Positions 6,189 through 31,200 of a DNA stretch of 32,312 nt are shown in pieces. Made by a program: the position numbers and the translations under genes. The stretch is from Phycisphaeraceae bacterium. GTDB lineage: Bacteria > Planctomycetota > Phycisphaerae > Phycisphaerales > Phycisphaeraceae. The DNA lies in assembly GCA_028280965.1 (NCBI GenBank), contig JANQKT010000078.1:1-32312 (forward strand), written 5' to 3'. Every line of letters starts with the position of its first letter. Position 1 is the first letter of the stretch. The notes beneath the pieces were generated by a model. It saw only the letters and a list, made by a program, of their open reading frames with translations. It had not been told where the DNA came from and did no database searches.

Positions 6189-6431
6189 ATGGGATGGTTC
6201 CAAAAACTCTGCCGCAACGCCGGGCTCTTGGTCCACGGCATCAAGGACCCGATCAAGAAGGACGCGCAGGCACGCGGGACCCGACAGGTCGTCAAGAAAG
6301 AAACAGAAGAAAAGCAGATCGACGAGAACATCACCCTCCGCCGGACGGTCATCGAAGAGATCGAGATGAAGCCCGGCGCGGACAAGAGCAAGCTCTCAAC
6401 GGAGCAGCAGACGAACGACCCAAAGTCGTGA
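6189..6431 (+). CDS. Small soluble hypothetical protein between nuoE and nuoF
   Basis: An 80-residue, highly charged protein. It begins MGWFQKLCRNAGLLVHGIKD, with a short amphipathic or weakly hydrophobic start, and has a central KQIDENITLRRTVIEEIEM segment and a polar tail. From memory, small proteins with a similar start and a (V/I)TLRRTxIEEIE core occur widely in planctomycetes with no assigned function; this is recall, not a search. An in-frame ATG at 6147 would add 14 residues, but the MGWF start fits the recalled family better. It lies between nuoE and nuoF, in the same direction, which may be incidental. Confidence 0.6.
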   Translation: MGWFQKLCRNAGLLVHGIKDPIKKDAQARGTRQVVKKETEEKQIDENITLRRTVIEEIEMKPGADKSKLSTEQQTNDPKS

Positions 6432-6443
6432 CATCACAACATG

Positions 6444-6520
6444 TGTCGTGGGTGGCGCGTAGCGTCCCGTGCAAGGCACAGCAGACGCCGATCACGGGAC
6501 GCTACGCGTCACCCGCGACA
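6444..6520. repeat. Palindromic intergenic repeat, copy 1
   Basis: Two 28-base arms, 6444-6471 and 6493-6520, are inverted copies of each other with 26 of 28 positions matching and a 21-base loop. The core is GCGTAGCGTCCCGTG and its complement. A related copy lies at 9925-9999. The length, the lack of coding capacity and the position between genes fit a REP/BIME-like or non-autonomous mobile element. The transcript of the nuoE-nuoF region would fold into a long hairpin here. Confidence 0.8.
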
Positions 6521-6538
6521 CAAAATCAAAAGCCATCT

Positions 6539-7894
6539 ATGCCCCTCGAACAACCCATCCTGCTGACCAACATCCCCACCCCGCCGTGGGGCGACTTCGC
6601 CGACCGCAAGACGCTGTCTTACGCCGACTACACCAAGGCCGGCGGCTACGCGGCGCTCGAGCAGGCGGTCGGCATGGCCCCCAAGGACATCCTCGAGGTC
6701 GTCAAGGCCGCCGAGCTCCGCGGCCGCGGCGGCGCGGGCTTCCCCGCCGGGATGAAGTGGTCCTTCCTCCCGCCCCAGGACGGCGGGCAGCGCTTCCTCG
6801 CCATCAACTGCGACGAGTCCGAGCCGGCGACCTTCAAGGACCAAGTCCTCACCGAGTTCGACCCGCACATCGTCATCGAGGGCATCGCGATCTGCATGAT
6901 CGCCTGCCAGCTCGACACCGCCTACTACTACATCCGTGGCGAGTACCACCACCACCGCGAGATATTCGAGAACGCGATCCGGGAAGCCTACGACAACGGC
7001 GTCTTCGGCGAGGGCTCGCGCATCGGCAAGGTCAACGACCGCTGGCCGAACCTCTACCTCCAGCGCGGCGCCGGCGCCTATATCTGCGGTGAAGAGACCG
7101 CGTTGCTCGAATCGCTCGAGGGCAAGCGCGGCTGGCCGCGCATCAAGCCGCCGTTCCCCGCCGTCGCCGGCGCGTTCGGCCGGCCGACGATCATCAACAA
7201 CGTCGAGACCCTCGCCACCGTCCCGCCGGTCCTGACCCACGGCGCCGACTGGTTCAAGTCCTTCGGCAAGGGCCGGCCCGAGGGCGCGCCGCCCAACGTC
7301 CCCGCCTCCTTCGGCACCAAGCTCTTCGGTGTCTCCGGCCCCGTCAAGCGCCCCGGCGTCTACGAAGAACACCTCGGCGTCACCCTCAAGACCCTCGTCG
7401 AAGACTACGGCCAGGGCATGCTCCCGGGCAAGAACTACAAGGCCGCGTTCCACGGCGGGATCTCCATGGGCATCCTCGACACCGACGAGTACGAGGCCGA
7501 GATGGACTTCGACATCGGCAAGAAATACAACAACCTCGGCCTGGGCACCGCCTGCCCGACCATCATCCCGCATGACGTCTCGATGGTCGCGATGGCGAGG
7601 AACTGCGCCCGCTTCTACAGCCACGAGTCCTGCGGCCAGTGCACCCCCTGCCGCGAGGGCGGCAACTGGCTCTACAAGATCCTCACAAGGATCGAGCAGG
7701 GCGACGGCACGATGAAGGACCTGGACATGCTGCTGGAGATCGCCTCGAGCATGGGCTCGATGCCCGGCACCACGATCTGCGGCCTCGCCGACGGCGCCAA
7801 CTGGGCCGTGCGGACGATCGTGAACAAGTTCTGGTCGGAGTTCGAAGACGCGGTCAGCAAGGAGCGGTTTGTGAGTATATCTGCAGTGGGATGA
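6539..7894 (+). CDS. nuoF: NADH-quinone oxidoreductase subunit F
   Basis: NuoF is the NADH- and FMN-binding 51-kDa-type subunit of complex I, carrying one [4Fe-4S] cluster. The 451-residue product has the FMN/NADH loop RGRGGAGFPAGMKW (61-74), the CDESEPATFKDQ motif (91-102), GAGAYICGEETALLESLEGK (177-196), and cluster ligands C365, C368, C371 and C414. The start at 6539 follows the palindromic repeat; the frame is open upstream but would translate that repeat. The last residues, ERFVSISAVG, look unrelated to the family, and GC content falls sharply from here on. The usual nuoG partner is absent, so the 3' end may mark a recombination point. Confidence 0.95.
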   Translation: MPLEQPILLTNIPTPPWGDFADRKTLSYADYTKAGGYAALEQAVGMAPKDILEVVKAAELRGRGGAGFPAGMKWSFLPPQDGGQRFLAINCDESEPATFKDQVLTEFDPHIVIEGIAICMIACQLDTAYYYIRGEYHHHREIFENAIREAYDNGVFGEGSRIGKVNDRWPNLYLQRGAGAYICGEETALLESLEGKRGWPRIKPPFPAVAGAFGRPTIINNVETLATVPPVLTHGADWFKSFGKGRPEGAPPNVPASFGTKLFGVSGPVKRPGVYEEHLGVTLKTLVEDYGQGMLPGKNYKAAFHGGISMGILDTDEYEAEMDFDIGKKYNNLGLGTACPTIIPHDVSMVAMARNCARFYSHESCGQCTPCREGGNWLYKILTRIEQGDGTMKDLDMLLEIASSMGSMPGTTICGLADGANWAVRTIVNKFWSEFEDAVSKERFVSISAVG

Positions 7895-7945
7895 TATCTC
7901 CTACCAAATAAAACCCCTACTTTAAACGTCGTTCAATTAATAATT

Positions 7946-7974
7946 TTGTTATTATTCTGCACCTGTTGTATATA
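7946..7974 (+). promoter_or_regulatory. Candidate sigma-70-type promoter of the PEP-CTERM gene
   Basis: In an AT-rich 127-base gap after nuoF, TTGTTA (7946-7951) and TATATA (7969-7974) are separated by 17 bases; TATACT at 7971-7976 is an alternative -10. Initiation near 7981 would leave a leader of about 40 bases before the ATG at 8022. Confidence 0.4.
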
Positions 7975-8021
7975 CTGCGTCATACCTATGAATTTATCGT
8001 TCATGATAATTTAGAGAAACT

Positions 8022-8726
8022 ATGAAACTTTTATCTTGTATCTTTCCATGCTTTGTCTTGGCGTGTGTACTAAGCGATTTTGAAGCAAACGCTGGCGGCG
8101 TTACCTTTACTTTCACAGAATCCAGTGGAAGAGTTTTTATGAATGCTTCAGGCACGCTGGATACGTCTAATTTAGTCACTGCCCCGAACAGACCGACTTG
8201 GGGTGGAGTAGGGATCGAATCAGGTGGTGGTCAGAACTCTAACATCATGGGTGATGCGATAGTTTCTGTACCCCGCTCTACACAAGACACTTGGCTTCAA
8301 TTTAGTGAAGGCACTGATGTATCCCCATGGTATGGCGACATGTTTACTCTCAGTAGATACTTTTGGACTTCCACCGGCACTACAGAATTCGGAACATATC
8401 ATCAGACAGATAATGGAGTGAATTATCCTGGCCTGATTGTTAGTTCCGCCGACCTCAATGGCACTTTGTGGACGCCTGATAACCGCTGGGAAATATCAGG
8501 CACATTCGAATCGCTTGGTATGACACCGGGCGACTATACGATCACCGATGCGGCCACCAACGAATTCATTTCAATTCAAATCGTTCCAGAGCCTGGCACA
8601 GCGATTGCTCTATCTATAACCGGATTGCTTGTGATACTAAGGCGAAACAGCCCTCGGCGGATGGCCGTGGCCGGGTGGCAGGGGCAGAGGCTCGGCGGTG
8701 CCCCGGAACGACTGACGCTTGATTGA
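8022..8726 (+). CDS. PEP-CTERM sorting-domain protein with extended tail
   Basis: A 234-residue exported protein with an N-terminal signal peptide (cleavage probably after EANA, near residue 24), a middle part with no family I recognise, and a PEP-CTERM tail at about 188-210: VPEPGT, a hydrophobic helix and a basic RRNSPRR cluster. PEP-CTERM tails are recognised by an exosortase, which should be encoded elsewhere. Translation normally ends just after the basic cluster; here about 21 more residues follow, encoded by a palindromic element. The gene is much poorer in GC than its neighbours, apart from the palindrome, which suggests acquisition by transfer. A weak GAGA box precedes the ATG. Confidence 0.8.
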   Translation: MKLLSCIFPCFVLACVLSDFEANAGGVTFTFTESSGRVFMNASGTLDTSNLVTAPNRPTWGGVGIESGGGQNSNIMGDAIVSVPRSTQDTWLQFSEGTDVSPWYGDMFTLSRYFWTSTGTTEFGTYHQTDNGVNYPGLIVSSADLNGTLWTPDNRWEISGTFESLGMTPGDYTITDAATNEFISIQIVPEPGTAIALSITGLLVILRRNSPRRMAVAGWQGQRLGGAPERLTLD

Positions 8727-8778
8727 TCACTGACATCCCGTTCCGGGGCTTCGCAAGCTCAGCCGCCTGCCACCCGGC
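8670..8778. repeat. Palindromic element overlapping the 3' end of the PEP-CTERM gene
   Basis: Outer arms GCCGGGTGGCAG (8670-8681) and CTGCCACCCGGC (8767-8778) are perfect inverses, as are inner arms GCCCCGGAACG (8700-8710) and CGTTCCGGGGC (8739-8749). The 109-base element is GC-rich and unlike the AT-rich gene it joins. Its sequence differs from the 6444/9925 repeat, so it is a second family. It supplies the stop codon of the PEP-CTERM gene and lies 20 bases before the next gene. Confidence 0.8.
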
Positions 8779-8797
8779 GTCTGGGTAACATGCGGCG

Positions 8798-9922
8798 ATG
8801 CTCTCAACCGTTCAATCTCTTATCCGGCAAGGCATCGACGACCAACTCCACCTCGGGGCACAGGTGTGCGTGTCGCGTGAGGAAGAGGTGGTTGAAGAAC
8901 TTGCTTCTGGAGATGTAACCGAGCCGGCACTGCGTTCTGGCCCGGCTTGTGGGGCGATCAACAGTGAATCAATCGCCCTCTGGATGTCCAGCGGCAAGCC
9001 CGTCACCGCGGTCGCGATCCTGCAACTCCTCGAGCACGGGGAGATCGAGCTGGACGACCCCGTCGCGGCATTTTTGCCGACATTCGCGGCGCACGGGAAG
9101 CAGGGGGTCACCGTCCGGCACCTGCTGACGCACACCGGCGGGATACGGTCCGCCGACTTCAAGTTCCCGCGCGATGACTGGGGCACGATCATCGCGGCGA
9201 TCTGCGACTGCAAGCCCGAGTGGGAGCCCGGCGAGCAGGGCGGGTACCACACGCAGACGTCCTGGTTCATCCTCGGCGAGTTGGCCCGGCTGGTCGACGG
9301 CCGGCCGATCGATCAGTACGTGCGTGAAGAAATTTTCCTGCCGCTGGGCATGAACGATTCCTGGGTCGGCATGCCCCCGGACGTTTTCACCGGCTATGAA
9401 CAAGCGGGCAGACTGCTGGCGATGCCGGTGACCAGCGCCGGGCGGTTCGCGGCGAACAACAAGGTCTCGGCCGAGTGGAACACCCGCCCCCGGCCCGGCG
9501 GCAACGGGATGGGGCCTGTGCGCGAGCTGGTCATGTTCTACGAGATGCTGCTCGCCGGCGGGCAACGCAACGGTGTGCGCATCCTCCAGCCTGAGACGGT
9601 CGCCTTGATGACGTCACGGCAACGCGCCGGCATGGTCGATCAAACCTTCAAGCAAACCGTCGATTGGGGTTTGGGTGTTTCGATCAATTCTGCGCATTTA
9701 GCACCCAATGGTGCCTGGCACCTCATCCCGTACGGCTACGGCCCGCACGCCTCGCGCGACACATTCGGCCACGGCGGGGCGCAGTCGTCCATCTTCTTCG
9801 CCGACCCTGTGCACCGACTTGCGGTCGGCATCGTCTTCAACGGCATGCCCGGCGAGGCGAAGCACCAGCAGCGCGTGAACGCGGTGCTGGAGGCGCTATA
9901 TGAAGACTTGGAGCTGGTTTAG
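8798..9922 (+). CDS. Serine hydrolase, beta-lactamase class C / penicillin-binding fold
   Basis: This 374-residue protein has the class C beta-lactamase/D-alanyl-D-alanine carboxypeptidase fold. The catalytic S-x-x-K motif is SSGK at 64-67, a tyrosine motif GYHTQTSW lies at 149-156 (Y150), and the third motif is the HGG of DTFGHGGAQS near residue 325. The motifs LLTHTGGI (109-116) and ELDDPVAAFLP (84-94) are typical of the family. Members include beta-lactamases, esterases, peptidases and transesterases; the substrate cannot be assigned here. There is no signal peptide, so it should be cytoplasmic, which argues against a role as a resistance enzyme. The gene stands alone between two palindromic repeats. 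Confidence 0.88.
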   Translation: MLSTVQSLIRQGIDDQLHLGAQVCVSREEEVVEELASGDVTEPALRSGPACGAINSESIALWMSSGKPVTAVAILQLLEHGEIELDDPVAAFLPTFAAHGKQGVTVRHLLTHTGGIRSADFKFPRDDWGTIIAAICDCKPEWEPGEQGGYHTQTSWFILGELARLVDGRPIDQYVREEIFLPLGMNDSWVGMPPDVFTGYEQAGRLLAMPVTSAGRFAANNKVSAEWNTRPRPGGNGMGPVRELVMFYEMLLAGGQRNGVRILQPETVALMTSRQRAGMVDQTFKQTVDWGLGVSINSAHLAPNGAWHLIPYGYGPHASRDTFGHGGAQSSIFFADPVHRLAVGIVFNGMPGEAKHQQRVNAVLEALYEDLELV

Positions 9923-9924
9923 CG

Positions 9925-9999
9925 TGTCGCGGGTGACGCGCAGCGTCCCCTGCGGATGCACCAATCATGATTCGCGCGGGATGCTTCGCGTCTCCGGCT
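9925..9999. repeat. Palindromic intergenic repeat, copy 2
   Basis: The left arm (9925-9949) matches the complement of the right arm of the 6444-6520 repeat at 24 of 25 positions. The right arm (about 9975-9999) is a degraded inverse. It begins three bases after the stop of the hydrolase gene and ends just before the ComM fragment. It may act as a transcription end structure for the hydrolase, which has no other visible terminator. Confidence 0.7.
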
Positions 10000-10010
10000 A
10001 AACATGAAAA

Positions 10011-10244
10011 CTATCTCTCCCGATCCAACAACCGATAGCTGATCGCCTCCGCGACGTGCGCTAGCTGCACCGACTCACTTGCATCCAGGTCCGCGATCGT
10101 CCGCGCGATCCGGCGGACCTTGTCGCAGGCTCTTGCGCTAAGACCAAGCTCGGCCATCGCCTGCTTGAGCACATCCTTGCCCGCGTCGTCGAGCGCAGCG
10201 TGCTGATCCAGCTCGCGGCCGATCAGCAGCGCGTTGCTTAGCAC
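10011..10244 (-). pseudogene. ComM/YifB-type AAA ATPase, C-terminal fragment (copy 1)
   Basis: The 77 residues match only the last domain of ComM/YifB Mg-chelatase-like ATPases: KVRRIARTIADLDAS and AEAISYRLLDRER are the classic C-terminal helices. Full-length members have about 500 residues; the Lon-like domain, Walker A and B motifs are all missing. Similarity to the second copy (30727-31200) begins at about NALLIGREL; upstream residues are unrelated, so the break lies near 10235. The nucleotide sequences of the two copies have clearly diverged while most amino acids agree. I read it as a relic, though a short translated product starting at GTG cannot be excluded. Confidence 0.75.
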
Positions 10245-30726: not shown

Positions 30727-31200
30727 TTACCTCTCTCGATCCAGCAACCGATAGCTGATCGCCTCCGCGACGTGCGAAAGTTGAACGGGCTCGCATGCGT
30801 CCAGATCCGCGATGGTTCGGGCGATGCGACGGACCTTGTCGTAGGCGCGTGCGCTCAGACCCAGTTCGGTCATAGCCTGTTTGAGCACGTCTTTACCAGC
30901 ATCGTCTAATGCCGCATAGTCGTCCAGCTCGCGACCGCTGAGCAATGCGTTGCGTTTAAGCGAGCCGCCATTGCGTTGGCTCTGGCGCTCACGGGCGGCG
31001 AGGACTTGCTCGCGCAACTGTGCGGAGGACGCTCCGTTGCGCTGGCCGGTGAGTTGTTGGTATGGCACGCGGGGAACCTCGACGTGGATATCGATGCGGT
31101 CGATCAGCGGACCGGAAAGCCTAGCGAGGTAACGGTCCATCTCGCGCTGACCGAACGCGTCGGCGGGCTTGTCGCCCTTGGGCGTGGGGTTCGTTGCCAT
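30727..31200 (-). pseudogene. ComM/YifB-type AAA ATPase, C-terminal fragment (copy 2)
   Basis: About 157 residues match the C-terminal third of ComM/YifB proteins: ATNPTPKGD (in place of the usual NPCPCGY), DRYLARLSGPLIDRIDIHVE, KVRRIARTIADLDAC and AEAISYRLLDRER. The Walker A and B motifs and the N-terminal domain are missing. Similarity stops at the ATG at 31200, exactly where a 22-base sequence shared with the neighbouring helix-turn-helix gene begins. The frame continues open upstream but encodes unrelated antisense residues. Full-length ComM proteins are helicases that promote branch migration during transformation; this fragment cannot do so. It is longer than copy 1 (10011-10244). Confidence 0.8.

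Follow-up and report, generated by a model that had tools for sequence, protein, structure and literature searches.

REPINs, described as small non-autonomous elements built of two inverted REP hairpins, and the RAYT transposases that accompany them form an arrangement that is already known, also from planctomycetes. By the published definition, a REP carries the 5' tetranucleotide GT[AG]G. In the assays reported in PMC8266576 this foot acts as a guide: changed feet of the Mb enzyme alter the cut dinucleotide, GTGG moving the cut to CC, and changes at the third base of the foot stopped cutting by the Sm enzyme. Residues Q95 and R104 of E. coli TnpAREP have been named for foot recognition (PMC8266576, PMC6006769), and REPs are described as fading after RAYT loss (PMC3686654). 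Here we compare with these systems a palindrome family from a planctomycete, which we assign to them with a probability of about 0.9.

Two palindromes in the window

The window, the whole stretch of 32,312 nucleotides analysed here, is one contig (C154) of a 4.16 Mb assembly in 263 contigs (G000). The original prediction had placed palindromes at 6444-6520 and 9925-9999, the first near perfect and the second with one decayed arm; both are real, and core and coordinates proved right within a few bases. Copy 1 (6442..6522, unstranded) consists of two REP arms in inverted orientation, separated by about 27 nt. Its feet, GTCG, lie at 6445-6448 on the plus strand and 6516-6519 on the minus strand, and its 30-nt inverted repeats (6442-6471 and 6493-6522) are 93% complementary. 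Folded as single-stranded DNA it reaches -42.1 kcal/mol (z -10.4), a value that none of 200 shuffles equalled. Copy 2 (9924..10003, unstranded) combines an intact left arm, with the foot GTCG at 9926-9929 and no differences from the arm consensus, and a decayed right arm that differs from it at 4 positions and whose foot, at 9998-10001 on the minus strand, reads TTAG; the fold of copy 2 is marginal (z -1.84; 9 of 200 shuffles equally good).

Both copies are intergenic. Copy 1 sits within the nuo gene run, between a small ORF after nuoE (6189..6431, plus strand, start codon set by comparison), which ends just before it, and nuoF (Complex1_51K; 6539..7894, plus strand) downstream. ORFs resembling the small one precede nuoF in several relatives, and a family search with a longer version of it returned no match. 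Copy 2 lies directly past a beta-lactamase-family hydrolase (PF00144; 8798..9922, plus strand), whose stop codon is 1-2 bases ahead of it. Rfam at its gathering threshold had no matches in the window. Other repeats occur nearby: a long palindrome of another family at 8656-8780, at the end of the PEP-CTERM ORF 8022-8726, to which a stretch in the sister genome G003 is similar (L222 4215-4317), and a 226-nt direct repeat, 80% identical between 10012-10237 and 30728-30953, the first copy of which directly follows copy 2.

Recombination between the two copies had been suggested as a way of moving the block from nuoF to the hydrolase, a suggestion that is not supported. G001 and G002 keep this gene order, with a hydrolase homologue after nuoF, and neither has such a palindrome upstream of nuoF; the direct identity between the window copies amounts to one 30-base arm with 4 mismatches. 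We rejected copy-copy recombination as the origin of the block because the gene order is the same in those two genomes. In G012 and G013 (L131, L125) the gap before nuoF holds palindromes with the foot GTTTAG and a stem of a different type from copy 1; this could reflect either a favoured site or an old element with a changed stem.

A genome-wide population of inverted pairs

The palindromes had been proposed as members of a repeat family, to be given up in favour of local hairpins should the genome hold no further copies. A BLAST search with copy 1 returned 75 matches, both strands counted, and a pattern for the arm with at most 3 mismatches matched 267 times in G000, against 13 for a reversed-pattern control; these counts rule out local hairpins only. 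These are short imperfect palindromes in many copies, as REPs and REPINs are. We took a census of the loci around the best ~100 of the 267 arm matches, which gave 64 inverted pairs, a set in which decayed copies are under-represented and one copy, in which contigs C99 and C143 seem to meet, may be counted twice, together with 34 single arms, some of which are chance matches or a related motif. When the pairing rule was altered slightly, the counts were 66 pairs and 22 single arms. Spacers measured 22-31 nt in 59 of the 64 pairs and 43-50 nt in the other 5, the kind of preferred distance expected of a REPIN. Contigs C99, C143, C263, C97, C119, C202 and C199 end inside or beside repeat copies. 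Tandem GGGTGACGC 9-mers expand one REP arm at L010 (about 1480-1510) and L017 (about 1490-1510), and the weaker arm matches include a related, distinct motif, GCCGGCGACGCGTAGCGTCGCGGC (L016 2776; L084 2745 and 2792; L087 663; L111 530).

A single arm folds as an unpaired four-base foot followed by CGGG, a 2-nt bulge, ACGC, a 3-nt loop, GCGT and CCCG, and a whole pair, either copy 1 or a consensus sequence, folds as one long hairpin. The two arms of a copy agree beyond shuffling at three of the four variable positions tested, namely foot base 1 (49/66), a bulge base (46/66) and a loop base (43/66), with foot base 3 showing no excess (48/66 against 47.4 expected). In a separate test on 39 copies we counted 25 changes shared between arms, compared with a shuffle mean of 8 and a maximum of 17. 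As the arms of one copy co-vary, the pair, judged from sequence comparison, seems to be the inherited unit.

The copies are predominantly extragenic: by a crude GC3-based gene caller, 52 of the 64 pairs lie between called genes, 4 at contig edges and 8 within ORFs as called. Window copy 1 was wrongly counted with these 8, since the nuoF frame stays open upstream. The 52 intergenic pairs lie between 25 convergent, 24 tandem and 3 divergent gene pairs, and the remaining gaps of 90 bp or more in these loci comprise 5 convergent, 25 tandem and 12 divergent ones, so that convergent or tandem gaps hold 49/52 pairs as against 30/42 of the other gaps. The check on orientation and position that had been asked of the family thus found inverted pairs near gene 3' ends, usually a few bases after a stop codon. 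Insertion there would be least harmful, which may be how copies come to collect after gene ends. The same placement, often between convergent genes, could be read as that of terminators or mRNA-stability hairpins selected at gene ends with no role for a transposase. We consider this very improbable: a crude scan found no stem-plus-T terminator at either window copy, the nuo gene run encloses copy 1, the sequence is more conserved than a hairpin requires, and copy number goes with the presence of the transposase, as described below.

A RAYT-type transposase between two copies

A Y1_Tnp search of G000 found three genes. One of them, on contig C177 (831-1427, minus strand), lies between REP pairs at 726-820 and 1443-1542, both of them inverted pairs with wider spacers, and the REP-associated transposase that was to be looked for is present with copies on both sides, the arrangement expected of a RAYT gene. 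It is flanked on both sides likewise in G003 and G015. Its protein scored 53 bits (E 3.2e-14) against REP_Tyr_transpos (NF047646), under the NCBIfam cut-off of 80, and just below the Pfam cut-off; all 19 aligned relatives match REP_Tyr_transpos. H105, H107 and Y175, the HxH and Y motifs, are invariant across the 19 aligned rows (this protein and 18 relatives), giving the HUH motif and catalytic tyrosine of this enzyme class, and a Y..NP motif corresponds to the class 2 motif described in PMC6006769. The predicted model (pLDDT 81.6) matches IS200/IS605 transposases and E. coli TnpAREP (4er8; E 2.3e-5). Foldseek ranked 4er8 11th, with ISDra2 at the top, and fold by itself is thus not enough to classify the enzyme; we place it as a RAYT because of the family match, the Y..NP motif and the flanking REPs.

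The other two genes are flanked by other repeats. The original prediction spoke of a second palindromic repeat family, and the present one is indeed one of several in the genome. A second RAYT, on C257, scores 100.9 bits against NF047646, above the cut-off, and is flanked by a different palindrome family, GACAGGCAGGAATGCCTGTCCCCC (L045 3450-3556 and 4038-4163), with 68 genome matches against 0 for the control and many copies paired about 70 bp apart. The third, a Y1-type gene on C60 (L046 2049-2731), has the inverted repeat AAGACCGCCGATG... on both sides.

REP-like arms, inverted pairs across the genome and a flanked transposase together lead us to regard the window palindromes as REPIN-type elements, a population very probably copied by the C177 enzyme, a single-domain RAYT/TnpAREP-type HUH/tyrosine transposase. 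The transposase would cut single-stranded REPs and copy the pair, with the foot guiding the choice of cut dinucleotide by analogy with the published assays. What speaks against a REPIN/RAYT system is a foot mostly outside GT[AG]G, a transposase below the family cut-offs, a fold nearest to ISDra2 and, as set out below, the failure to see a clean empty site or excision product and the absence of copies of this family beside the transposase gene in three relatives. One could instead see a TIR-type MITE of an IS200/IS605-like or TIRYT transposon, in which the whole long palindrome would be recognised and not footed REP arms. The pair does form one long perfect hairpin, the top fold matches are IS200/IS605 enzymes, and tyrosine transposases flanked by long TIRs have been described (PMC3733652). 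Against this, single arms occur alongside pairs (34 to 64 in the census around the best ~100 of 267 matches), an arm by itself has REP anatomy, and in relatives the GTTTAG foot of the REPs is retained across differing stems. A MITE of this type is therefore improbable in our estimation, and we hold with high confidence that the system works like a REPIN/RAYT.

Copy number follows the transposase in relatives

Among 61 genomes, G000 included, 27 have a transposase match. With at most 2 mismatches the arm pattern matched 216 times in G000, 175 in G003, 80 in G015, 41 in G013, 33 in G004 and 26 in G018; copy number exceeds 20 in 6 of the 61 genomes, and every one of these has a transposase match. 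In G001 and G002, of the same genus as G000, no transposase was matched, and the arm counts are 9 and 17, with 5 and 4 for the control. That copy number tracks the transposase agrees with the fading of REPs after RAYT loss (PMC3686654). At the locus itself the association is incomplete, as no copy of the window's REP family adjoins the transposase gene in G004, G013 and G018. Palindromes with a GTTTAG foot on other stems occur in many of the more distant relatives, and in a group of RAYTs found throughout planctomycetes, with 219 loci in a single scan, the REPs retain this foot as their stems differ. Within 250 bp of the best 80 of the 219 loci, GTTTAG or GTGTAG was found upstream of 57, downstream of 53, on both sides of 50 and on either side of 60, as against 10 for control windows. 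GTGTCG and GTTTCG were not enriched near the same best 80 transposase genes (41 versus 38 in the control).

The transposases of the sister genomes G000 and G003 are 70% identical. We compared insertion sites between the two, and 14 of the 64 G000 sites had both flanks in the part of G003 that was compared, about 0.7 Mb. Ten of these 14, window copy 1 among them, are filled in G003 as well; the remaining 4 look empty, though a precise junction is lacking at each, and the 14 resolved sites showed neither a clean empty site nor an excision product.

A population-wide change of the foot

Feet in G000 are mostly GTCG or TTCG, and seven relatives carry GTAG or TTAG. Exact KTAG/KTCG arms number 17/74 in G000 and 103/4 in G003, with 6/0 in G001, 3/0 in G002, 20/0 in G004, 29/0 in G013, 50/0 in G015 and 11/1 in G018. 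Given the A feet of the seven relatives, the simplest reading is that C arose in the window's species. Most G000 feet fall outside GT[AG]G (most of the KTAG arms listed there are TTAG), and those of G003, mostly GTAG, fall inside it. The comparison with REP-type repeats in the original prediction is supported by the genome-wide inverted pairs near gene 3' ends and by the transposase; with the strict foot mostly missing in G000, though present in its sister, we call the system a variant and not a plain member. In a partial survey of the REPIN/RAYT and planctomycete REP literature, covering few subscription papers, we found no report of a C foot.

At the 10 shared sites, 19 of 20 G000 arms have C at foot base 3 and 18 of 19 G003 arms have A, orthology being loose at three of these sites (L010, L012 and L036). 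Either old copies were rewritten, through conversion or re-insertion into existing REPs, or the same gaps were filled separately by each species. Coinciding boundaries at L020, at L015 and at the window copy favour the rewriting of old copies.

A quick tree of 81 transposases places two changes of the foot from A to C. The first event is in the window's species, whose sister, L231, has an A foot (support 95). The second is in a planctomycete clade of L246, L247 and L249 (support 100), whose sister L267 has an A foot (support 80); in the genomes of this clade 32 of 33 listed REPs have a C foot and one a G. We then compared residues between 4 C-foot and 50 A-foot rows, 27 rows being unassigned. 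At positions 3, 61, 130, 155 and 164 (of 198) the 4 C-foot rows share a residue found in less than 20% of A-foot rows. By profile alignment, W154 and W159 correspond to W94 and W99 of E. coli TnpAREP, which puts 155 opposite Q95 and 164 opposite R104. Relative to its sister species, the window's species has Ala155 changed to Ser, Gly157 to Lys and Lys164 to Ser, and Ser155, Lys157 and Ser164 are also those of the C-foot clade L246, L247 and L249. Ser155 and Lys157 occur together in 4/4 C-foot rows and 0/50 A-foot rows; Ser155 alone was rejected as the foot reader, being present in 4 of the 50 A-foot rows.

These observations allow the tentative proposal, in our view less likely than not, that guide and reader switched jointly in the window's species. 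The foot would have gone from GTAG/TTAG to GTCG/TTCG across the population, old sites included, along with changes in the transposase segment that aligns with the foot-reading region of E. coli TnpAREP, with old copies rewritten in concert and the enzyme now choosing CG and not CT as its cut dinucleotide. By the foot-guide logic of PMC8266576, GTCG would predict a cut at CG. The far end of a pair would carry the complement of the foot, CTAC before and CGAC now, and a change in both arms would keep guide and cut site matched. A rival reading, for the foot change only, is that an inert tail drifted neutrally and that two lineages share the transposase residues by coincidence; to this we give roughly even odds. 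Drift is easier to accept in that there are only two events, so that an independent-pairs sign test on the residue link (two pairs) cannot reach 0.05, that positions 61 and 130 separate C-foot from A-foot rows as well as 155 does, and that L267 has Ser155 and Ser164 despite its A feet. It is harder to reconcile with a foot base whose conservation equals that of the stem in either genome (109/129 arms with C in one, 70/74 with A in the other), with the base having changed at shared sites too, and with third-base changes abolishing or redirecting cutting in published assays (PMC8266576).

The system bears on how transposases recognise REPs and on how populations of tiny elements change jointly. 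G000 and G003 share insertion sites and differ in one foot base plus a few residues of the segment aligned with the foot-reading region, and so offer a natural test of an enzyme's DNA choice.

Comparison with known systems

One close likeness is to the REPINs and RAYTs of Pseudomonas fluorescens SBW25 as described in PMC3116915, which also have inverted REP pairs with spacers of narrowly limited length, joint change of the two arms, a cognate transposase beside copies and single arms that are likely remnants. The present family differs from them in phylum, in sequence and in its G000 foot, GTCG/TTCG against GT[AG]G. As in Rhodopirellula baltica and other planctomycetes with GTAG REPs and RAYTs (PMC3733652), the REPs here come with tyrosine transposase genes and as several families in one genome; GTCG, TTAG and Phycisphaera are absent from the main text of that paper, figures apart. 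With E. coli TnpAREP (4er8) and its REPs, as presented in PMC8266576 and PMC6006769, it shares the HxH and Y motifs, a similar predicted fold, the unpaired foot and the bulged stem, whereas Q95, E100, H101 and R104 are not kept in the C177 protein and the E. coli foot is GTAG. The family itself is a further case of a known kind, and what stands out is the population-wide change of foot together with the shared transposase residues.
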